Origin: Rhizophagus irregularis
Lineage: Eukaryota > Glomeromycota > Glomeromycetes > Glomerales > Glomeraceae
NCBI RefSeq assembly: GCF_026210795.1
Contig: NC_089433.1
Span: 4,489,001 to 4,553,000 of the forward strand
Length of the DNA stretch: 64,000 nt
Direction of reading: 5' to 3'
Shown: positions 4,505 to 57,640 of the stretch, piece after piece
Position numbering within the stretch: the first letter of the stretch is position 1
Layout: each line of letters opens with the position of its first letter
Translations under genes and position numbers: made by a program
The notes under the pieces: generated by a model
Seen by the model: the letters and a program-made list of their open reading frames with translations, nothing else
The model's database searches: none
What the model was told of the DNA's origin: nothing

Positions 4505-4590
4505 ACTATTTACGGCACATATACCAGTTACGGCAACATATACCAATTACGGCACATACACCAGTTACGGCGCATTTACCAGTTCCAATT
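4505..4590. repeat. short tandem repeat, TTACGGCACATATACCAG-like
   Basis: About four imperfect copies with a period of 20-23 bp of a unit beginning TTACGGC and ending ACCAGT or ACCAAT. Related GCCGTAA words appear just upstream at about 4165-4195 and 4600. Function unknown. Confidence 0.6.
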
Positions 4591-6864: not shown

Positions 6865-9800
6865 TTACATACCTAATTTCTTCAAATTAAATATGCATTC
6901 ATTCAAATCTTCGCTTATTAGCATTTCACTCACTTGTACACTAGTTTGTGAATTTTTACTTTCAAGAATTTCATTCAATTGTTTACTAGTAAAATTAAGT
7001 AAGCGACTTGTATAGCAAGCCTGTGAGTGAGATTCAGTAGCAAGGTTGTTATGCCCAATTGGTGCATTTATAAATTCCATAATATTGCATTTTAATTCTT
7101 CATTAATGTCTTCAATTTTCTTACCAGAAGGAAGAAAAATCCATTCATGAATAATATTTAATACTTCTTTAGAAGATGGTCTTTTTAATGGATCTCCATC
7201 CCAACATTTTTTCATCAAATCAACATAGCATTGCGGAGTATTTTCAATAATTTCAGGACGTTCACCTTCACAAATACTTAAACTAAGTTGAATATCATGT
7301 GCTCTATTATTAAATGGTGGTATTCCAGATGTAAATTCCCACAAAATCATAGAAAAACTATATATATCACTAGCTGGAGTATAAGGTTTGCCTCTTAAAA
7401 CTTCAGGTGCCATAAATGGTACAACACCATAAATCTTATACTCTTTCAAAAATGATTTTACAGGTTGACATAATCCTAAATCACTAATATAAATTCTGTC
7501 TGCTTTATTCTCTTCATCTTTATTATTATTATTATTTAAAATATTGCCATCATGAAAATCACAATGAATAAGATTTAGTCTATGTATATCATCAAGTCCA
7601 GAAATAATTTCATACAACATGTATAATTTATGGTCCCAACCACTTTTAACTATTCTTGTTAAGTTTCTTCTTAAATTACCTTTGTTTGCATAATCCATTA
7701 CTGCCATGTATTTCAAAGTATCTGGATTTTTTGTAAATCCATAAAAATAAATAATATCATATGAATTTGAACAACTTTCATGATATTTCCACTATAAAAA
7801 ATAATAATATATTAATACAAATAAATTATAATTTAAATTAAAAGAAAAAATAAATAATATAATATCATACTTCATTTAAAAATTCATTTAAATTTTCATT
7901 TAAATTATTATGGCATTTAAGAATTACTTCTATATTATTTCCATCATTCTTTAACCAAATAGCTTTGTATATAGTACCAAATCCTCCTTCATTAAGATAT
8001 TCAACATTTTTAAATTTACTATAAGGAATCCATCTTAACTTTTTTTCAAGAATAAATTCATCTATGATTTTATTTCCACTTTTTCCATATCTATAAATTT
8101 AAATAATTAGAAGTTTATAATATAATTTACACTAAAATTTAAAGATTAAAATTAACACTTACTCTAAATTTAAATAGGAATTTAAGATAAAATACGTCAA
8201 AGTTTTGTATAAATATTTATAATAATAAGCTATATTTCATAACTTACCAACTAAAGTAATAGAAATTTAAAATAAAAAAATACAGTTAACAAATAAATAT
8301 TATATATTATATAAAATATAACAATAGAAATAACAACTTACTAGCTATATTAAATAATTTTTTAAATAAAGAATTTAGTTAGTTTTAAATATTATAACAA
8401 ATAAGTAATAATAAAATTAAATAAATACTGTAACTTACACCCTATATTATTTAAATATTTTTTTAAATAAAGAATTTAGTTAGTTTAAATTATATGTAAA
8501 TATTATAACAATAAGTAATAATAGATAATAGAATTAAATAAATAACTTACGAGCTATATTATTTAAATAATTTTTCAAACAAAGAATTTAGTTAGTTTAA
8601 ATTATATGTAAATATTATAACAATAAGTAATAATAGATAATAGAATTAAATAAATAACTTACGAGCTATATTATTTAAATAATTTTTCAAACAAAGAATT
8701 TAGTTAGTTTAAATTATATGTAGATATTATAGCAATATTAAAGTAATAATAGAATCAAATAAATAACTTACACCCTATATTATTTAAATAATTTTTTAAA
8801 TAAATAATTTAGTTAGTTTAAATTATATGTAAATATTATAACAATAAGTAATAATAGAATTAAATAAATAATTTATAACTTACGATCTATTAAATAAAGA
8901 ATTTAGTTATTTAAATTGTATGTAAATATTATAACAATAAGTAATAATAGAATTAAATAAATAACTTACACTCTATATTATTTAAATAATTTTTTAAATA
9001 AAGAATTTAGTTAGTTTAAATTATATAACAATAAGTAAGAATAGAATTAAATAAATAACTTACCCTCTATATTATTTAAATAATTTTTTAGATAAAGAAT
9101 TTAGTTAGTTTAAATTATATGTAAATATTATAACAATAAGTAATAATAGAATTAAATAAATAACTTATAACTTACCATCTATTAAATGAAGAATTTAGTT
9201 AGTTTAAATTACATGTAAATATTATAACAATAAGTAATAATAGAATTAAATAAATAAATAACTTACTAACTAAAAGAAATTACAAAATAATTTTTTAAAT
9301 AAAGAATTTAGTTAGTTTTAAATATTATAACAAATAAGTAATAATAGAATTAAATAAATAATAAAATATTTTTTAAATAAAGAATTTAGTTAGTTTAAAT
9401 TATATGTAAATATTATAACAATGAGTAATAATAGAATTAAATAAATAATTTATAACTTACGATCTATTAAATAAATAATTTAGTTAGTATAAATTATATG
9501 TAAATATTATAACAATAAGTAATAATAGAACTAAATAAATACTATAACTTACACCCTATATTATTTAAATAATTTTTTAAATAAAGAATTTAGTTAGTTT
9601 AAATTATATGTAGATATTATAGCAATATTAAAGTAATAATAGAATCAAATAAATAACTTACACTCTATATTATTTAAATAATTTTTTAAATAAAGAATTT
9701 AGTTAGTTTAAATTATATGTAAATATTGTAACAATAAGTAATAATAGAATTAAATAAATAACTTACCCTCTATATTATTTAAATAATTTTTTAGATAAAG

Positions 9801-11592
9801 AATTTAGTTAGTTTAAATTATATGTAAATATTATAACAATAAGTAATAATAGAATTAAATAAATAACTTATAACTTACCATCTATTAAATGAAGAATTTA
9901 GTTAGTTTTAAATATTATAACAAATAAGTAATAATAGAATTAAATAAATAATAAAATATTTTTTAAATAAAGAATTTAGTTAGTTTAAATTATATGTAAA
10001 TATTATAACAATAAGTAATAATAGAATTAAATAAATAATTTATAACTTACGATCTATTAAACAAATAATTTAGTTAGTATAAATTATATGTAAATATTAT
10101 AACAATAAGTAATAATAGAACTAAATAAATACTATAACTTACACCCTATATTATTTAAATAATTTTTTAAATAAAGAATTTAGTTAGTTTAAATTATATG
10201 TAGATATTATAGCAATATTAAAGTAATAATAGAATCAAATAAATAACTTACACTCTATATTATTTAAATAATTTTTTAAATAAAGAATTTAGTTAGTTTA
10301 AATTATATGTAAATATTGTAACAATAAGTAATAATAGAATTAAATAAATAACTTACCCTCTATATTATTTAAATAATTTTTTAGATAAAGAATTTAGTTA
10401 GTTTAAATTATATGTAAATATTATAACAATAAGTAATAATAGAATTAAATAAATAACTTATAACTTACCATCTATTAAATGAAGAATTTAGTTAGTTTAA
10501 ATTACATGTAAATATTATAACAATAAGTAATAATAGAATTAAATAAATAACTTATAACTTACCATCTATTAAATGAAGAATTTAGTTAGTTTAAATTACA
10601 TGTAAATATTATAAACAATAAGTAATAATAGAATTAAATAAATAACTTACAAGCTATATTATTTAAATAATTTTTTAAATAAAGAATTTAGTTTGTTTAA
10701 ATTATATGGAAATATTATAACAATAAGTAATAATAGAATTAAATAAATAACTTATAACTTACGACCTATTAAATAAAAAATTTAGTTAATTTAAATTATA
10801 TGTAAATATTATAACAACAAGTAATAATAGAATTAATAAATTATTTATAACTTACCATCTATTAAATAAAGAATCTAGTTAGTTTATATTATATGTAAAA
10901 TATTATAACAATAAGCAATATTAGAATTAAATAAATAACTTACTCCCTATATTATTTAAATAATTTTTCAAAGAAGAATTTAGTTAGTTTAAATTGCATG
11001 TAAATATTATAACAATAAGTAATAATAGAAATAAATAAATAAATAACTTACTAACTAAAAGAAATTACAAAATAATTTTTTAAATAAAGAATTTAGTTAA
11101 CTTAAATAATAGATATATAGACGTCATATAACTTACACCCTGTAGTATTATCAATTATTAATTGGTTAGATATAAATTTAATAGAAAAGTATTTACTATA
11201 ATTAATATATCACTTACAATCTATTTATTTAAATTAAAAATATGATTAGTTAGATTATATTAAAATATTAAATATTAATAAATAAACATCATATTAATAT
11301 AATATCCTTAAGGCTTAAGTAATATAACTTACCAGCTGTAAAATTATTAATTAGTTATTTAAATAAAGAATTTAGTTATTTGAATATTATATAAAATAAA
11401 TAAAGTGAAAAACTAAAAATTTAATAACTAATAACTTACAAACTATAGTATTATTAATCATTAAATGAATTATTTAGTTATATATAACATAATAAAAATA
11501 ATAATTAATATTTGCAAAATTGTTTAAACTTTTTATGGGATAATTCTAATTTTATATTCTGTATGATTACCTTTATCAATACATTGATCCAT
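6865..11592 (-). CDS. TKL-type protein kinase with a 31-triplet micro-exon array (left arm)
   Basis: Gene model on the minus strand: exon 1 11571-11592 (ATG at 11592, MDQCIDK plus one base), 31 three-base exons between 11442 and 8248, a one-base exon A at 8163, exon 7871-8090, exon 6865-7791. The total is 1263 nt, in frame, 420 residues. The kinase has a Gly-rich loop (LNEGGFGTIYKAIW), the beta-3 Lys (VILK), a catalytic loop HCDFHDGNIL with Cys in place of the usual Arg of HRD, DLG in place of DFG, an APE motif and a complete C-lobe. Its tail ends in an Ile/Asn-rich segment plus conserved SRLLNFTSKQLNEILESKN. Predicted to phosphorylate Ser/Thr or Tyr; the substrate is unknown. If the triplets are skipped the frame is still kept (G + A + A). 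Exon 1 may extend upstream as part of a longer 5' exon; I chose the only nearby in-frame ATG, conserved in both arms. The kinase domain is certain; the spliced array is a strong inference. Confidence 0.8.
8091..11570 (-). repeat. tandem mini-intron / three-base micro-exon array, left arm
   Basis: Read on the minus strand, each unit of about 85-115 bp begins GTAAGT, contains CTAAC about 20-40 nt from its end, and finishes in TAG or CAG. Between one AG and the next GT there are always exactly three bases. Triplets lie at 11440, 11333, 11218, 11137, 11052, 10944, 10856, 10763, 10651, 10563, 10469, 10357, 10252, 10143, 10051, 9879, 9767, 9662, 9553, 9461, 9267, 9176, 9064, 8970, 8884, 8772, 8663, 8551, 8439, 8342 and 8248. 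A single-base exon follows at 8163. Two junctions are lost, giving fused introns of about 169 nt (9882-10050) and 191 nt (9270-9460). A 590-bp higher-order duplication is visible. Split codons formed across the triplets contain no stop. Confidence 0.9.
9302..10481 (-). repeat. 590-bp higher-order tandem duplication inside the left array
   Basis: Five consecutive micro-exons (9461, 9553, 9662, 9767, 9879) recur at exactly +590 bp (10051, 10143, 10252, 10357, 10469) with the same triplets and nearly identical introns. The repeat includes the same fused double-length intron edge. This is a recent unequal exchange or slippage that added five codons without disturbing the frame. Confidence 0.85.
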
Positions 11593-15903: not shown

Positions 15904-17835
15904 GTCAAATAAATAAAAATCAGATTTTTGCCCTTTTTAATATGGCTGTCTGATTTTTTGGCAATTTTAATATAATATTTCCGATTTTAATAAATATTTC
16001 TGATTTTAATATAATATTTCTGATTTTTAACATGAAATTGCCGATTTTTGGTTATTTGTAATAGGATTTTTCAATTTTAATATGTAACATGTGATTATGT
16101 ATTACGGTTTAATATTTATTTATTAACTTAGATTTTTTTTTATTTCAGTTATAATTATTTTTTTGCCTTAAAAACTTTACTAAAATACTTTTTAAATACT
16201 TTATAAAATAGAATTAAAATATTTTTTTTCTTAAATATAAATACATTTAAATTAAATAACTCATAATTTAAAATATAAACAAATATTATATTTTTTTTAC
16301 ATATATTTCAAAGTATGGTTTGAGCATTTTGGCTGAAGTAAATCTTATTCTTTTAATTAAAAGTAGTTTAGTAAGTTTAAAACTGTTAAGATCATAAAAG
16401 TACAGTTAATATTTTTGGAATTATTTACATTTTTTATATTATACAGTAGTATTAAGTTACAAATTTTTTTACCTTCAGAGCGTATTTTGAGATCTTTAGC
16501 CAAAGTAAATCAACTTCTTATATTAATTGTAAGTTGTTCGGCAGGTTAAAATCTACTTGGATATTAATTTTCACGAAGGTACAGTTAATACTTGATGAGT
16601 TATTTACAATTTTCACAACAGTACTCATTCACGACTTTTATTTTTTTCATTTTGTCACTCCAGAGCGTATTTTGAGCACTTTATCCAAAGTAAACCAACT
16701 TCTTATATTAATTGAAAGTTGTTTAGCATGTCAAAATCTACTTGAATATTAATTTTCACGAAGGTACAGTTAATACTTGATGAGTTATTCACGATTTTCA
16801 CAATGGTACTCATTTACGAATTTTATTTTTTCCGTTTTGTCACTTCAGAGCGTATTTTGAGCACTTTAGTCAAAGCAAATCGACTTCTTTTATTAATGCA
16901 AAGTTGTTTAGCATGTCAAAATCTACTTGAATATTAATTTTCACGAAGGTACAGTTAATACTTGATGAGTTATTCACGATTTTCACAATGGTACTCATTT
17001 ACGAATTTTATTTTTTTCCGTTTTGTCACTTCAGAGCGTATTTTGAGCACTTTAGTCAAAGTAAATCGACTTCTTTTATTAATTGAAAGTTGTTTAGCAT
17101 GTCAAAATCTACTTGGATATTAATTTTTACGAAGGTACAGTTAATACCTGATGAGTTATTCACGATTTTCACAACAGTACTCATTTACGAATTTTATTTT
17201 TTTCCGTTTTGTCACTTCAGAGCTTATTTTGAGCACTTTAGTCAAAGTAAATCGACTTCTTTTATTAATTGAATGTTGTTCGGCAGGTCAAAATCTACTT
17301 GGATATTAATTTTTACGAAGGTACAGTTAATACCTGATGAGTTATTCACGATTTTCACAACGGTACTCATTTACGAATTTTATTTTTTCCATTTTGTTAC
17401 TTCAGAGCGTATTTTAAGCACTTTAGCCAAAGTAAATCGACTTCTTTTATTAATTAAAAATTGTTCAGCAGCTTAGAATCTACTTGAATATTTATTTTAA
17501 TGAAGGCACAGTTAATATTTGTGGAGTTATTAATTTTTTATAATTGTGCGTATTACATTAAATTACAAGTAAATTTATATTCTTAATGTATTTTGTTTAA
17601 AATTTAATTATTTAACATTAGTTTTTTATTTAATATTGCTTAATAAAATATTTTTTAAATTTTAATTCAATATTATAATATAATTTTTTATAAAAATATA
17701 TATTTCATAATGTATATACAATTTTTTTGTATAGTGAAAAAACTGAAAAATGTGGTTAAGAATTGGTAATACAGCTGTAAAAAGTCACAAATCGGACAAA
17801 TATAGCTAAAATCAGCCAATTTTTATTTATTTGAC
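15904..17835. mobile_element. nested element with GTCAAATAAATAAAAAT inverted ends
   Basis: GTCAAATAAATAAAAAT at 15904 and its inverse (ATTTTTATTTATTTGAC) at 17819-17835 bound about 1.9 kb made largely of a 185-bp tandem repeat. Just inside both ends are degenerate GATTTTTG/GCCGATTTT words (15920-16080). No clear target duplication was seen. It sits wholly inside the larger CCCTATAAA element, so it inserted later or is a constituent of it. Confidence 0.6.
16300..17545. repeat. 185-bp tandem repeat, about six to seven copies
   Basis: Successive copies of CAGAGCGTATTTTGAGCAC start near 16478, 16662, 16847, 17033, 17219 and 17404, with a period of about 185 bp. Outer copies are more diverged. 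Similar short open frames (KSTWILIFTKVQL...) appear in several copies, but they shift and stop at random positions, so they are shadows of the repeat. Diverged single copies occur near 14555 and 23577-23690. Confidence 0.9.
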
Positions 17836-17935: not shown

Positions 17936-18840
17936 TTAAAAAATTCACAAGAATTTTTGTTAATACTGTTTAATTTTTAAGTTCAAAGTCCGATTGATAA
18001 TACTAAATTCAAAACTCAATTATAAATCATTTTTATAAATTATAATTTAAAAATTAAGCAGTATTAAGGAAAATTCTCATGAATTTTTCTTAATACTACT
18101 TAATTCTAATTTAACCAATTTAGTATTAAGGTTTTAATTTAAAAATTAAGCAGTATCAAGGAAAATTCTTGCGAATTTTTCTTAATACTGCTTAATTCTA
18201 ATTTAACTAATTTAGTATTAAGGTTTTAATTTAAAAATTAAGCAGTATCAAGGAAAATTCTTGCGAATTTTTCTTAATACTGCTTAATTCTAATTTAACT
18301 AATTTAGTATTAAGGCTTTAATTTAAAAATTAAGCAGTATCAAGGAAAATTCTTGCGAATTTTTCTTAATACTGCTTAATTCTAATTTAACTAATTTAGT
18401 ATTAAGGCTTTGATTTAAAAATTAAGCAGTATCAAGGAAAATTCTTGCGAATTTTCCTTGATACTGCTTAATTCTAATTTAACTAATTTAGTATTAAGGC
18501 TTTGATTTAAAAATTAAGCAGTATCAAGGAAAATTCGCAAGAATTTTTCTTAATACTGCTTAATTCTAATTTAACTAATTTAGTATTAAGGTTTTAATTT
18601 AAAAATTAAGCAGTATCAAGGAAAATTCTTGCGAATTTTTCTTAATACTGCTTAATTCTAATTTAACTAATTTAGTATTAAGGCTTTAATTTAAAAATTA
18701 AGCAGTATCAAGGAAAATTCTTGCGAATTTTTCTTAATACTGCTTAATTCTAATTTAACTAATTTAGTATTAAGGCTTTGATTTAAAAATTAAGCAGTAT
18801 CAAGGAAAATTCTTGCGAATTTTTCTTAATACTGCTTATA
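17936..18840. repeat. 92-bp hairpin satellite, first block
   Basis: About nine copies of a 92-bp unit, each containing AAGCAGTATCAAGGAAAATTC, a TTGC loop, and the near-inverse GAATTTTTCTTAATACTGCTT. Each can form a stem of about 21 bp with at most two wobble or mismatch positions; one copy (about 18420-18470) is a near-perfect palindrome. The units are joined by TCTAATTTAACTAATTTAGTATTAAGG.. linkers. No coding capacity. Confidence 0.9.
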
Positions 18841-32809: not shown

Positions 32810-34500
32810 TGTCTTTTATTCATATACCAACCTAAAACTGAAAAGTCATGGTCACAACTTGCATTATGTAGCTTTATAGCATTGACAATTAATGCCAGTT
32901 GTTGAATATGATACTTTTTTGTTTACACATTAGCCACCAATTTTTGACATTATGAATTCCAGATACAAATTCAAAATCATGAGGTTAAATTTTAAGAGAA
33001 TAGTATGTTAATTGAGCAATTAATTTATTTGCTGAATTGCTTCCTTTTCCTAATACTTTCCAAATGAATAATGCTTTTCACAAATTATTCAAAAAGTAAT
33101 TTTGTTATAAACCTATATCTAAAAATGAACAAAATAATTCTAATTTAATTTTTAAAACTTAAAACAATTATATAATTTTTTTTAAAAATATTTACCTCTA
33201 TAATTTGGATGCAAAAAATATGCGAGTAGGTATAAGTCAAAGTTAAATTCTTGCCACTTTTTATTAAAAATTGGTTACATTTAGAATGAAAATTGATAGT
33301 TCTGATTTGAAGTAATTCTTTTATAGATGCAGCCATAGTTGCAAGACAAATAAAACAATTTGCTAATATAACTTTTTATGTTCAAGTATTATGATAGCTT
33401 TTTTAATTGGATTTAAAATTGAACAAAGATCTTCTATATCATGACCTCCAGAACCACGTACTGATGAACAAGTTCAGGTCCGGCCTCCAGTTGAGCCTTC
33501 TGATGAACAAGTTCAGATCCGGCCTCCAGAACCACGTACTGATGAACAAGTTCAGGTCCGGCCTCCAGAACCACATTAAAATTGCAACAGCAAATAATGG
33601 ATAGTATTTCAGCGCTAAATAGCTGTCTTTCATATTCTGTTAACTAAATAAAAAAAAATATAAATAAAATAAAATATATTAATAAATTATAATTGTTTTC
33701 TTGGCCAAAACTCATTTTTTGCTAATTAGAAAATAAACTATAAATATATACTTACATTTTTTAATTGATTTTATAGCATCAAACAATTGAATCAGTGCAA
33801 TTAAATGCAGTAGTCCATCAAGTTTTAACATGTTTTTTTAAACCACCGCCTGGTACCAAATTTTTAATTATATCTTTTCTTAATAATGCACACTTTTATG
33901 TGAACTAGTAAAAAAAGTAACTATTTTTCTACATTCACTAGTTAGATTAGATATCTATTCCAGGTTCATAATATCAGTGGTTAAAAGATTGATAATTATA
34001 TAGGAATGGTGAGTAATGATCATTTTTTTAGCTAATGCTACATTAGAAGCATGATCTGAGATAACAGTGCAAAATTTTTTAATACCAACATCATCCATTA
34101 TTTGTAAAATTTCATTGCTTAAAAATTCTCCTGTATGTGAATTCTTAAAAAAAATTTTAAAGAGTAAACATATTCTCAGCCTTCATCTGTCATTATTAAC
34201 CAGAGGGTGATATCTATTTATTATCAAAGCCTAAAATAATATATAATAAATATAATTATTATAATAGTAAAGATCAGCAATATATGTTTAATACAAATTA
34301 ATTAGCCTTATGTAAGTTTTGTTTCTTTATCCAATTCCTTACTAATTTCACTAAGTACATAGGTGCACTCTTTATTAACCAAAGTTGTAAAAAGTGCTGT
34401 TCTTTTTGGGAGTTGAAAATTAGGTATAATCTTTTAATAAAGTCAATAAAGAAGGGATTTTCAACTATCCAAAATGGAATACCACAGCAAATAAAAAACT
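32810..34500 (-). pseudogene. hAT transposase pseudogene (DUF659-like core to dimerisation domain)
   Basis: Minus-strand pieces appear in the order expected for a hAT transposase. TGEFLSNEILQIMDDVGIKKF with ISDHASNVALAKKMI is at about 34010-34145. LTSECRKIVTFFTSSHKS, RKDIIKNLVPGGGLKKHV, a stop, then WTTAFNCTDSIV lie at about 33785-33960. A C-terminal dimerisation-like segment, ASCDHDFSVLGWYMNKRQL, is near 32810-32890. Stops, frameshifts and a foreign-looking 39-bp repeat (33447-33574) interrupt it. A short Cys-containing frame at 34298-34510 may belong to it. It cannot encode an active enzyme. Confidence 0.8.
33447..33574 (+). repeat. 39-bp coding-like tandem repeat, three copies
   Basis: Three and a quarter copies of a 39-bp unit that is much richer in G+C than its surroundings. 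In one plus frame the unit reads PPEPRTDEQVQVR / PPVEPSDEQVQIR, and it ends in PPEPH and a stop; a stop also precedes it. It interrupts the hAT relic. It may be a captured piece of a proline/glutamine repeat gene or a locally expanded sequence. Confidence 0.8.
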
Positions 34501-52209: not shown

Positions 52210-55200
52210 ATGGATCAATGTATCGACAAAGGTAATTATATAGCAGAATATATAATATAAAATTAGAAGTTAATAGGTTATCTTATAATTAAATAAAATT
52301 AATAATAACAGATAATGAAATTAATTATTATTTTTATTATATTCTTATGTAACTAAATAATTTATTTAATGATTAATAATACCATAGATTGTAAGTTATC
52401 AGTTACTTAAATTTTTAGTTTTTTTACTTTATTTATATTCAAATAACTAAATACTTTGTTTAAATAATTTTTTAATACTACAGCTAGTAAGTTACAATAC
52501 TTAATAATATTGTATTTAATATTACATTTATTTATTAATATTTTAATATAACTTAACTAATTATATTTTTAATTTAAATAAATAGATTGTAAGTGATATT
52601 TTAATTTATAGTAAATAGTATTTTTCTATTATATTTATATCTAACTAATTAATAATTGATAATACTACAGGGTGTAAGCTATATGATATCTATATTTCTA
52701 TATTATATAGTAATTTAAGCTAACTCAATTCTTTATTTAAAAATTATTTTGCAATTTCTTTTAGTGGGTAAGTTATTTATTTAATTCTATTATTACTTAT
52801 TGCTATAATAAACTAACTAAATTCTTTATTTAATAGATGGTAAGTTATAAATTAATTAACTAATTCTATTATTACTTATGGACATATATTTACATATAAT
52901 TTAAACTAACTAAATTAAAAATTATTTAAATAATATAGGATGTAAGTTATTTATTCTATTATTTATTGTTATAAGATTTGCATATAATTTAAACCAACTA
53001 AATTCTTTATTTAAAAATTATTTAAATAATATAGGGAGTAAGTTATTTATTTAATTCTATTATTACTTATTGTTATAATATTTACATATAATTTAAACTA
53101 ACTAAATTCTTTATTTAAAAATTATTTTAATAATATAGGTAGTAAGTTATTTATTTAATACTATTATTACTTATTGTTATAATATCTACATATAATTTAA
53201 ACTAACTAAATTCTTTATTTAAAAAATTATTTTATAGAAGGTAAATTAATTATTTAATTCTATTATTACTTATTGTTATACTAATATTTACATATATTTA
53301 AACTAACTAAATTCCTTATTTAAAAAATTTCTTTTAGCTAGTAAGTTATAAGTTATTTATTCAATTCTACTATTACTTATTGTTGTAATATTTAAATATA
53401 ATTCATATTAACTAAATTCTTTATTCAAAAAAATTATTTTGTAATTTCTTTTAGTGGGTAAGTTGTTACTTATTATTATAATATTTACATATAATTTAAA
53501 CTAACTAAATTTTTTATTTAATAGATCGTAAGTTATAAGTTATTTATTTAATTCCATTATTACATATTGTTATAATATTTACATATAATTTTAACTAAAT
53601 TCTTTATTTATAGCTCGTAAGTTATAAGTCATTTATTTATTTCCATTATTACTTATTTTTATAATATTTACGCATAATTTAAACTAACTAAATTCTTTAT
53701 TTAATAGATCGTAAGTTATAAGCCATTTATTTAATTCTATTATTACTTACTATTTTTATAATATTTACATATAATTTAAACTAATTAAATTCTTTATTTG
53801 GAAAATTATTTTGTGATTCTATTAGTTAGTAAGTTATAAGTTATTTGTTTAATTCTATTATTACTAATTGTTATAATATTTATATATAATTTAAATTAAC
53901 TAAATTCTTTATTTAAAAAATTATTTTGTAATTTCCTTTAGTGGGTAAGTTATTTATGTAATTCTATTATTACTTAATTGTTATAATACTTACATGTAAT
54001 TTAAACTAACTAAATTCTTTATTTACAAAATTATTTAAATAATATAGAGTGTAAGTTATTTACTTAATTCTATTATTACTTATTGTTGTAATAATTACAT
54101 ATAATTTAAACTAACTAAATTTTTATTTAATAGCCCGTAAGTTATAAGTTATTTGTTTAATTCTATTACTACTTGTTTTTATAATATTTATATATAATTT
54201 AGCTAATTAAATTCTTTATTTAAAAATTATTTTGTGATTTTTTTTAGTTAGTAAGTTATAAGTTATTTACTTAATTCTATTATTATTTATTATAATATTT
54301 ACATATAATTTAAACTAACTAAATAAAAATTATTTAAATAATACAGGGTGTAAGTTATTTATTTGATTCTATTATTACTTATGGTTATAATATTTACATA
54401 TATAATTTAAACTAACTAAATTATTTAATAGATCGTAAGTTATAAGTTATTTACTTAATTCTATCATTACTTATTGTTATAATATTTACTTATAATTTAA
54501 ACTGACTAAATTCTTTATTTAAAAAATTAACTAAATAATATAGGGTGTAAGTTGTTTATTTAATTATATTATTACTTATAATTACATATAATTGTAACTA
54601 ACTAAATTCTTTATTTAAAAAATTATTTAAATAATATAGGGTGTAAGTTATTTATTTAATTCTATCATTACTTATTTTTATAATATTTTAAACTAACTAA
54701 ATTTCTTATTTAATAGGTCGTAAGTTATAAGTTATTTTTAATTCCATTATTACTTATCGTTGTAATATTTATATAAAATTTAAACTGGCTAAATTTTTTA
54801 TTTTAATAGATAGTAAGTTATAAGTTGTTTATTTAATTCTATTATTGTTATAATATTTACATATAATTTAAACTAATTAAATTCTTTATTGAAAAAATTA
54901 CTATTTATATAGAGTGTAAGTTATTTACTAAATTCTATTATTATTTATTGTTGTAATATTTATATAATTAAACTAACTAAATTCTTTATTATTTTGTAAC
55001 TTTTTTTTAGTGGGTAAGTTATTTATTTAATTCTATTATTACTTATTGTCATAATATTTACATATAATTTAAACTAACTAAATTCTTTATTTAATTTGTA
55101 ATTTCTTTTAGCTGGTAAGTTATTTATTTAATCTATTATTATTACTTATTGTTATAATATTTACATATAATTTAAACTGACTAAATTTTTTGTTTAAAAA

Positions 55201-57640
55201 ATTATTTTGTAATTTCTTTTAGTTGGTAAGCTGTTTATCTAATTTTATTATTACTTATTGTTATAAATATTTACATATAATTTAAATTTAACTAAATTCT
55301 TTATTTAATAGATGGTAAGTTATTTACTTAATTATATTATTACTCATTGTTATATTATTTACGAATAATTTAAACTAACTAAATTCTTTATTTAAAAAAT
55401 TATCTAAATAATATAGAGAGTAAGTTATTTATTTAATTCTATTATTGTCATAGTAATATTTACATATAATTTAAACTTAATTAAATTCTTATTTAAAAAA
55501 TTACTTAAATAATATAGAAAGTAAGTTATTTATTTAGCTCTATTATTACTTATTGTTATAATATTTATATATAGTTTAAACTAACTAAATTCTTTATTTA
55601 AATAATATAGAAAGTAAGTTACTTATTTAATTCTATTATTACTTATTGTTATAATATTTACATATAATTTAAACTAATAAATTTCTTTAAAATTATTTAA
55701 ATAATATAGAGAGTAAGTTATTTATTTAATTCTATTATTACATATTGTTATAATATTTACATTTTAAATTAACTAAATTCTTTATTTAATAGATCGTAAG
55801 TTATAGGTTATTTATTTTATTCTATTATTACTTACAATATTTATATAATTTAACTAAATTTTTTATTTAAAAAATATAGCTCGTAAGTTATTTGTTTAAT
55901 TCTATTATTACTTATTGTTATAATATTTACATAATATCTAAACTAACTAAATTCTTTATTTAACAAATTATTTAAATAATGTAGCTCGTAAGTTATTTAT
56001 TTAATTCTATTATTACTTATTGTTATAATGTTTACATATAATTTTAGACTAACTAAATTCTTTATTTAAATAATATATATAGCTCGTAAGTTATTTATTT
56101 AATTCTATTATTACTCATTGTTATAATAATTACATATAATTTAAACTAACTAAATTCTTTATTTAAAAAAATTATTTAAATAACATAGCTTGTAAGTTAT
56201 TTGTTATTTCTATTGTTATATATTTTATATAATATTTATTTGTTAACTATTCTTTTATTTAAAAATTTCTATTACTTTAGTTGGTAAGTTGTGAAATATA
56301 ACTTATTATTATAAATATTTATACAAAAACTAAGATATATATTATCTTAAATTCCTATTTAAATTTTAGAGTAAGTGTTAATTTTAATCTTAAATATTAG
56401 TTTAAATTTTATTATAAACTTTAATATAATTTTAATTATTTAAATTTATAGATTTGGAAAAAGTGGAAATGAAATCATAGATGAAATTATTCTTGAAAAA
56501 AAGTTAAGATGGATTCCTTATAATAAATTTAATAATATTGAATTTCTTGATGAAGGAGGATTTGGTATTATATACAAAGCTATTTGGTTAAATAATAATG
56601 GAAATAAAGAAGTAATTCTTAAATGTCACAAGAATTTAAATGATAATTTAGTTGAATTTTTAAATGAAGTATGATGTTATGTTATTTTTTTAATTTAAAT
56701 TATAATTTATTTATATTAATATGTTTATTATTTTCTATAGTGGAAATATCATGGAAGCTGTTTAGATTCAAATGATATTATTCATTTTTATGGATTTACA
56801 AAAAATCCAGATACTTTGGAATATTTGGTAGTAATGGATTATGCAAACAAAGGTAATTTAAGAAGTAACTTAACAAGAATAATTGAAAGTGGTTGGGATC
56901 AAAAAGTTTTTATGCTGTATGGAATTATTTATGGACTTGGCTTTATACATGAACAAAATCTCATTCATTGTGATTTTCATGATGGCAATATTCTAAATCA
57001 TAATGAGGATAAAATTTATATTAGTGATTTGGGATTATGTCAACCCATAAAATCATCTTTAGAAGAGTCTAAAATTTGTGGCGTTATACCATTTATGGCA
57101 CCTGAAGTTTTAAGAGGCAAACCTTATACTCCAGCTAGCGATATATACAGTTTTTCTATGATTATGTGGGAATTTACATCTGGAGTACCACCATTTAATG
57201 ATAGAGCACATGATATTCAACTTAGTTTAAGTATTTGTAGAGGTGAACGTCCTGAAATTATTGAAAATACTCCACAATGCTATGTAGATTTGATGAAAAA
57301 ATGTTGGGATGGTGATCCATTAAAAAGGCCATCTTCTGGGAAAATTTTAGAAACTATTGAAAAATGGGTTTTATATCCTAAAGACAAGAAAATTGAAGAT
57401 ATTAACGAAGAATTAAAATGCAATATTATGGAATTTATAAATGCACCAATTGGGCATAATAATCTTGCTACTGAATCTCACTCACAAGCTTGCCATACAA
57501 GTCGCTTACTTAATTTTACTAGTAAACAATTGAATGAAATTCTTGAAAGTAAAAATTCACAAACTTATTATGCAACCCATTCTTCTACTGGTATAACTGA
57601 AGATTTGGATGATTGTATAATTGAAGATACAAGTAATTAG
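52210..57640 (+). CDS. TKL-type protein kinase with a 41-triplet micro-exon array (right arm)
   Basis: Model: exon 1 52210-52231 (MDQCIDK plus G), 41 three-base exons between 52388 and 56283, a one-base exon A at 56370, exon 56452-56668, exon 56741-57640. The total is 1263 nt, in frame, 420 residues. The linker made by the triplets begins DSNWLDGWSK and ends NPPPPFEFGKSG, with no stop. The kinase has LDEGGFGIIYKAIW, VILK (beta-3 Lys), HCDFHDGNIL (HCD instead of HRD), ISDLGLCQP (DLG) and FMAPEVLRGKPYTPASD. The C-terminal tail matches the left-arm paralogue except for its last 25 residues. A 5' exon upstream of the ATG is possible. The 1-nt exon is essential to the frame: without it the kinase is out of frame with exon 1. 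Kinase identity is certain; full use of the array awaits transcript proof. Confidence 0.8.
52232..56451 (+). repeat. tandem mini-intron / three-base micro-exon array, right arm
   Basis: Forty-three introns of about 66-155 nt, each GTAAGT-like at the start, CTAAC or close variants near the end, and AG at the 3' end. The first 41 spacers are exactly three bases, starting at 52388, 52484, 52586, 52671, 52765, 52837, 52939, 53035, 53139, 53238, 53338, 53455, 53525, 53614, 53708, 53826, 53942, 54048, 54134, 54248, 54347, 54432, 54544, 54640, 54717, 54810, 54913, 55011, 55112, 55223, 55312, 55417, 55518, 55611, 55710, 55793, 55880, 55985, 56083, 56189 and 56281. The last spacer is one base (56370). 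All introns in the triplet part are phase 1. Donors deviating from GTAAGT are rare (GTAAGC 52674, GTAAAT 53241). Confidence 0.92.

Follow-up and report, generated by a model that had tools for sequence, protein, structure and literature searches.

Predicted arrays of one-codon exons in tyrosine-kinase-like genes of Rhizophagus irregularis

Micro-exon genes and a locus of Rhizophagus irregularis

Genes with many very small coding exons have been described in schistosomes, whose micro-exon genes, a family with higher reported dN/dS values, are made up largely of short symmetric exons whose omission leaves the frame intact (PMC8293314), and in aphids, whose bicycle and megacycle genes carry many micro-exons (more than 100 in megacycle), evolve fast and encode putative insect effectors (PMC9168663). 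Exons of a single nucleotide are also on record, in APC11 of Arabidopsis (PMC4674806) and in CYP621A of Fusarium (PMC12940212), the latter being presented as the second single-nucleotide exon and the first one in a fungal gene. In this work we analyse a window of 64,000 nucleotides from the fungus R. irregularis (assembly GCF_026210795.1, contig NC_089433.1, positions 4,489,001 to 4,553,000 of the forward strand), where a gene on the right arm and its inverted paralogue on the left are predicted to carry tandem arrays of 41 and 31 exons of three bases each, between a short first exon and a tyrosine-kinase-like domain.

These arrays resemble the schistosome type in having many short exons whose length is a multiple of three. 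The schistosome exons, however, measure up to 36 bp and belong to proteins with signal peptides, according to the accessible text of that study (PMC8293314), whereas here we find one-codon exons by the tens, set in a tandem satellite of introns and followed by a kinase; the predicted starts MDQCIDK, MAQSNDK and MGQCIGK look unlike a signal peptide when judged by eye. The aphid genes share with the arrays the large number of micro-exons per gene and the rapid evolution, but neither an array of one-codon exons nor a tandem intron satellite is described in the available part of the paper (PMC9168663). As for the one-base exon that we place behind the array at position 56370, its counterparts in APC11 and CYP621A are likewise needed for the frame, although in the accessible text of both reports (PMC4674806; PMC12940212) they appear as isolated cases. 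Finally, the 3-bp micro-exon of homothorax in Drosophila has the same size, but it is single and alternatively spliced, with no array in the part of the source at hand (PMC7392893).

The kinase domain found here (PF07714) is of the same general kind as the expanded kinases of R. irregularis, a repertoire given as 2,533 members in the accessible part of one study (PMC10234402) and in which the expansion of tyrosine-kinase-like genes has also been noted, as far as the available text of another goes (PMC4219462). The word 'microexon' does not occur in the main text of the former, to the extent that this text is available, and no such arrays are described there; the same work reports long-read RNA data for DAOM197198 (PMC10234402). 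The SP7 effector was considered as a possible relative and set aside, as no one-codon exons are described for it in the accessible text (PMC11333574). Among the literature matches listed in our aimed searches none offers a precedent for a tandem array of one-codon exons, in line with a remark of the initial annotation, a model's note made from the letters of this DNA, that no such array was known to it. Since the repeat unit is itself an intron plus one codon, the architecture appears to be new, made of ingredients (spliceosomal introns and micro-exons) that are known.

A kinase gene with 41 predicted three-base exons

The right gene lies on the + strand and starts with an exon 1 of 22 nt (52210..52231; ATG...AAAG, with the letters ATGGATCAATGTATCGACAAAG), which ends in phase 1 and has the same start as that of the paralogue at 11592-11571. 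Intron 1, of 156 nt, reads GTAATT...TAG in the window sequence (52232..52387). Then, in an AT-rich tandem repeat region, follow 41 three-base exons between complete introns (52388..56283), each unit, as read directly from the window, of the form AG-NNN-GTAA(G/A)(T/C), with the first triplet at 52388-52390, the last one (TTG) at 56281-56283 and introns of 67-115 nt in between; the predicted junctions contain no stop codon. Behind the last triplet the sequence runs AG-A-GTAAGT, and in the gene model the A at 56370, between AG and GTAAGTGTT, is a one-base exon that gives entry to the kinase frame, without which the kinase exon would be read in a different one. The two kinase exons (PF07714 in the gene model) occupy 56452..56668 and 56741..57640, the second one up to a TAG stop. 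The predicted spliced product has 420 amino acids and no internal stop, starts with MDQCIDK-DSNWLDGWSK and extends to NPPPPFEFGKSG; its PF07714 match scores 139 bits, against a Pfam gathering cut-off of 23.1.

This gene model keeps much of what the initial annotation had proposed. The 41 consecutive micro-exons are recovered in full (41/41), and the stop-free linker beginning DSNWLDGWSK holds in the spliced product. The array had been started at 52232, which turns out to be the first base of intron 1, exon 1 being 52210-52231; introns of varying length (about 66-155 nt) were described there, and the lengths found here are those given above. The path from the array into an intact kinase frame also stands, with the addition that it requires the one-base exon at 56370.

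Stop codons at the micro-exon junctions

As exon 1 ends in phase 1, each codon of the array takes its first base from the end of one triplet and its other two from the start of the triplet that follows. Such a codon is split by an intron of about 100 nt and exists only when neighbouring triplets are joined; were direct neighbours left unjoined, a triplet ending in T would be free to precede one that starts with AA, AG or GA. These junctions were read in three sets of loci (designated here by L numbers). The first set comprised 29 loci (24 of them have 15 units or more, one has two and four have none) that contain 806 triplets and 735 neighbour pairs; the donor list of the parser was fixed once seven loci had been viewed, prior to any counting of stops. 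The second consisted of eight regions under the same fixed rules, and the third of twelve kinase-exon matches picked by hand from 151, ignoring array motifs and avoiding the earlier loci. The counts exclude spurious TAA or TGA units located 4 nt into a genuine donor, any unit that lies past the one-base exon (first set), and neighbours whose distance is below 55 or above 140 nt.

Not one of the 735 first-set junctions holds a stop in the phase of exon 1, when within-array shuffles give a mean of 32.8 and a minimum of 18 in 5,000. The second set yielded 0/266 (shuffle mean 4.8, some shuffles reaching zero) and the third 0/110 (mean 4.4, zero reached in 0.24% of the shuffles), so that the three sets pooled have no stop in 1,111 junctions, against about 42 expected from within-array shuffles. 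The result for the first set is the same over its distinct neighbour pairs (0/316, and 22 when these are reversed). Read in phase 2, first-set junctions contain 125 stops in 735 (shuffle mean 107), and read with neighbours reversed, 38 in 735; the corresponding controls gave 41 and 5 stops in the second set and 13 and 4 in the third. The initial annotation had taken the constant exon length as a sign of selection on the reading frame, and the junctions bear this out, specifically for direct neighbours in the phase set by exon 1. Stops that are absent between direct neighbours but present at other distances, in reversed order and in phase 2 point to micro-exons joined in order and translated. 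On the pattern of the sequence, the array is very probably protein-coding, each unit being a complete spliceosomal intron plus an exon of one codon, with all triplets kept and joined in order.

The triplets might instead be skipped in many combinations to obtain isoform diversity, as proposed for the schistosome micro-exon genes. As the units are all in frame, with splice sites that resemble each other, skipping any whole unit preserves the frame, and stops between triplets two positions apart (lag 2) in the first set fall below expectation (21/671, with 30.2 expected). Stops are nevertheless common at all lags from 2 to 8, with 37/619 at lag 3 and 33/570 at lag 4 (28.1 and 26.2 expected), and 22, 23, 22 and 27 at lags 5 to 8 (24.6, 22.8, 21.0 and 19.7 expected), which means that skipped forms are not kept stop-free. 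The signature agrees better with a main product that includes every micro-exon than with regulated skipping, and combinatorial splicing of this kind seems unlikely.

The three-base spacer

The pattern AG-NNN-donor presupposes a spacer of three bases, and for this reason the check was redone without presupposing it, on 704 clustered GTAAGT donors from 29 loci (27 others plus the two window arrays). An AG lies exactly 3 nt upstream of the donor in 674 of the 704, at offset 1 in 60, at offset 2 in three, and in at most three at each offset from 4 to 25; the 60 cases at offset 1 are one-base exons and triplets starting with AG. In the right window array 38 of the 39 exact GTAAGT donors follow the three-base rule, and the remaining one is that of the one-base exon. 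When the 37 loci of the first and second sets are taken together, the three-base spacer is present in 957/992 clustered GTAAGT donors; the exceptions number 35, and 27 of them have the one-base-exon form AG-A-GTAAGT. In recursive splicing, a long region is removed stepwise at ratchet sites, internal acceptor-donor pairs where AG abuts GT and no base is left behind. The arrays differ from such sites, with AG directly before GT (offset 0) at only 1/704 donors and three coding bases that would be kept each time.

These figures also bear on the idea of a non-coding satellite, in which the array would lie inside one big intron removed as a whole and the splice-like motifs would be the conserved core of the repeat. 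The AT-rich tandem repeat character of the region agrees with it, and skipping every triplet would indeed keep the frame as long as the one-base exon stays (22+1 nt before the kinase exon). Nonetheless, a satellite predicts neither the three-base spacer nor the one-base form of most of its exceptions, and it would permit stops formed by triplets some 100 nt apart, which the 1,111 direct junctions lack and which reversed and distant pairs contain. Barring a hidden bias in the junction counts, we regard this explanation as very improbable.

Introns of the arrays and variability of the triplets

The parsed introns, 1,001 from the first two sets, all have GT..AG ends by construction of the parser. 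The motif CTAAC occurs in 572 of them, a near form in 358 and neither in 71. In the last 40 intron bases AG is found 47 times, against 202 expected from base composition, and it is barely depleted in the intron bodies (389 vs 439 expected). The array introns are about 91% A+T. With their GT-AG ends, a branch motif and the exclusion of AG, they look like U2-type spliceosomal introns, and from these features together with the stop-free junctions we strongly infer that the arrays are spliced.

The third base of the triplet, which lies between the invariant AG and GT at the flanks of the triplet, is close to uniform over 1,105 units (T 297, G 289, C 276, A 243; 2.00 bits). Introns and triplets were compared in pairs of equal-length introns that are identical on half of their blocks, with divergence scored on the held-out blocks; this comparison, a stand-in for a test of positive selection that may be distorted by homogenisation of the introns, was made on 192 pairs from the same array and 154 pairs from different arrays. 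The held-out intron blocks diverge by 1.8% in the former and by 4.8% in the latter; the third triplet base differs in 32% and 70%, respectively, the first in 18% and 34%, and the second in 15% and 42%. The contrast is smaller for diversity within arrays, which is 0.72 at the third base and, leaving aside the vicinity of the splice sites, ~0.2-0.56 at most positions of the intron; in 22 of 32 arrays that base varies more than any other position. Overall, the repeat varies most in its triplets. The likeliest source of this variability would be diversifying selection together with exchange between units, and intron homogenisation could contribute.

Could the stop-free junctions reflect descent of the units from a small number of ancestral introns that happened to have compatible flanks? 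The units are certainly related and partly duplicated as blocks. To control for relatedness, the 1,001 introns were clustered by sequence and the upstream base was shuffled within clusters only: such shuffles expect 42.8 stops with one cluster, 31.4 with 124, 21.9 with 360 and still 12.0 with 578 clusters, against an observed 0/1,001, and no shuffle reached zero at any level of clustering (1,000 each). Moreover, the third triplet base differs between near-identical introns as often as stated above, both in the same array and in different ones, so that this explanation is even harder to credit than that of the satellite.

A large family of arrays and kinase exons

The arrays are a large gene family that goes beyond one locus. 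Genome-wide, the pattern TAG-Nk-GTAAGTTAT was found 35 times for k=2, 3,772 times for k=3 and 40 times for k=4, and the reversed-pattern controls gave 55, 62 and 110; for spacers of 4 to 12 bases, ATAG-N4 to 12-GTAAGTTAT has 224 matches vs 158 in the reversed control. The TAG-N3-GTAAGTTAT motif fits 571 of the 1,105 parsed units, and scaling up its 3,772 matches on this non-random sample would give, as a rough extrapolation, some 7,300 units in the genome. The one-base-exon motif TTTAGAGTAAGT(A/G)T(A/T)A occurs at 48 places vs 5 for its reversed control. Among the 100 listed of the 3,772 motif places, all are in tandem clusters except four singles and one pair. This clustering, with a kinase exon downstream, sets the units apart from introners, near-identical introns scattered across many unrelated genes. 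Arrays parsed across their whole length contain 15 to 56 units, and a further one (L031, C7:2569000-2578999), with 50 parsed units in almost 10 kb, runs past the end of its stretch, a kinase-exon match lying ~1.3 kb further on. A few exons seem to have six bases, or two codons (AGAGTA before GTAAGT at L007:2893, also L007:3035 and some ATAG-N6 matches), and may be merged units. An assembly or base-calling artefact, conceivable given the difficulty of assembling tandem repeats, is the least credible explanation of all, as thousands of diverged units, spread over many contigs, show the pattern, with 44 arrays parsed, and errors would not yield a frame logic.

The association with the kinase is equally regular. 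The first two sets comprise 32 arrays of 15 or more units, and for 29 of them a kinase-exon match lies within the stretch examined; the stretches of the other three (L007, L029, L031) end within the array and have a same-strand match just past the end, so that all 32 arrays have a kinase exon downstream. In the opposite direction, 12/12 kinase exons of the third set, which were picked by protein similarity, have an array immediately upstream. The first kinase exon matches at least 151 places in the genome (150 of 3,734 candidates scored), six of the listed matches containing a stop. A kinase exon was matched in 31 loci, of which 28 share the same one-base exon and the same kinase phase, L015 and L018, which are without a full array, being among them. 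As for the other three, L019 has the same kinase phase with its one-base exon further upstream, L004 was apparently mis-set by an AG within the exon, and L003 appears to be disrupted.

At the opposite end of the gene, exon 1 was inspected by eye in 12 loci and measures 22 nt in ten of them and 13 nt in L022, leaving phase 1 in all eleven; it was not recognised in L001. A second short exon precedes the array in some genes, with a length divisible by three in the two that were worked out (L005 and L017). The start of exon 1 varies, with MGQC or MGQS in some genes (L002, L003, L017) and MAQS, MAHS or MDQC in others, and the MGQC and MGQS starts resemble those of N-myristoylated or palmitoylated proteins.

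Observations that do not fit the full-inclusion reading

Several observations weigh against a coding array with every triplet included. The parser left 57 gaps of 141-260 nt between neighbours, and when these are read as single introns, before any hidden exon is added, stops arise in 5/57, vs 1.6 by chance. All five of these gaps hold an unparsed three-base exon, with the donor GTAGGT twice, GCAAGT twice and GTGCGT once, and its inclusion removes the stop in 5/5, an outcome that the coding reading predicts and that speaks in its favour. With a donor list that was widened post hoc, following this result, a candidate hidden exon was found in 31 of the 57 gaps, and the 62 codons read across them contain no stop; the other 26 have no candidate under the widened list. 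In addition, 8/992 clustered GTAAGT donors follow neither the three-base nor the one-base rule, and the deficit of stops at lag 2 (sd of the expectation, 4.2) leaves room for the skipping of single exons. Triplets that are themselves stop codons are rare (2/806 in the first set and 4/299 in the second), and with regard to this scarcity, triplets starting with TA or TG are rare overall in the first set. Processed retrocopies, sought in the genome by two spliced-junction patterns, gave 0 matches with each. Finally, a full array is missing from no fewer than three kinase loci (L016 and L018, with no array, and L015, with two units).

These last loci were considered as an intron-less ancestral state and rejected as such, as L016 and L018 have the kinase exon without an array and L015 keeps its two units. 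L008 was also rejected as an array-less relative, its one-base-exon motif being present with no recognised kinase exon, and so was L021, a chance match in an apparently unrelated gene. With respect to donors, GCAAGT (of the GC-AG type), GTAGGT and GTTAGT still bound three-base exons in L002, L013, L028 and L029 and also in gaps of L001, L009 and L026.

The inverted paralogue and other repeats of the window

The left gene runs on the minus strand from 11592 to 6865. Its exon 1 (11571..11592) is of the same kind as that of the right gene and is followed by 31 three-base exons (8248..11442), whose units are related and in part duplicated as blocks. Two long gaps interrupt this array (spacing of 172 and 194 nt); no hidden three-base exon was found in either, and they look like lost exons. 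The gene model continues with the one-base exon (A) at 8163 and with kinase exons at 7871..8090 and 6865..7791. The kinase frame is intact, and the predicted spliced product, again of 420 amino acids, has a PF07714 match of 129.7 bits against the same cut-off.

Other repeats are also present in the window. Tandem arrays occupy 16473-17531 (unit of 185 bases, ~5.7 copies) and 18043-18838 (unit of 92 bases, ~8.7 copies, 96% match), and short repeats with units divisible by three, perhaps coding, are found at 33445-33574 (39-base unit) and 4510-4584 (18-base unit).

A possible codon-cassette system and its meaning

How could such an array be expressed? Splicing would proceed from 5' to 3' by intron definition, each donor being used once the exon upstream has already become long, so that recognition of an isolated three-base exon would be avoided. 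The main form of the mRNA would include all units, and the one-base exon would restore the kinase frame after the array. The product would be a variable N-terminal segment ahead of the tyrosine-kinase-like domain, in a family of which a few copies are broken. As the units have similar introns, exchange between them could add, remove or swap whole codons without frameshift and, with codons split by the intron, each exchange could also create a new one. The hypervariable N-terminal segment would be what selection acts on; a role in docking or in recognition, upstream of the kinase domain, is a guess. Put together, this would amount to a system of codon cassettes, with ~7,000 one-codon exons in well over 100 kinase genes, where the unit of recombination would be the intron with its split codon, and where frame-safe shuffling plus diversifying selection would lead to a hypervariable recognition segment. 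We offer this view tentatively, as a possible one; in its logic, it can be likened to other repertoire-generating systems.

If confirmed by RNA, the right array would be gene structure carried to an extreme, with 41 exons of one codon each distributed along 3.9 kb to encode as many codons' worth of protein, and with the same design repeated through a large family. It would mean that a fungal spliceosome serially processes dozens of three-base exons plus a one-base exon, contrary to the usual expectation that exons of this size are skipped. As ordinary spliced aligners and gene predictors are expected to miss these arrays, the N-termini of R. irregularis kinases may be misannotated. For the family as a whole, the arrays would show in concrete terms how a satellite array can serve as coding sequence and, at the same time, as a source of frame-safe protein diversity.

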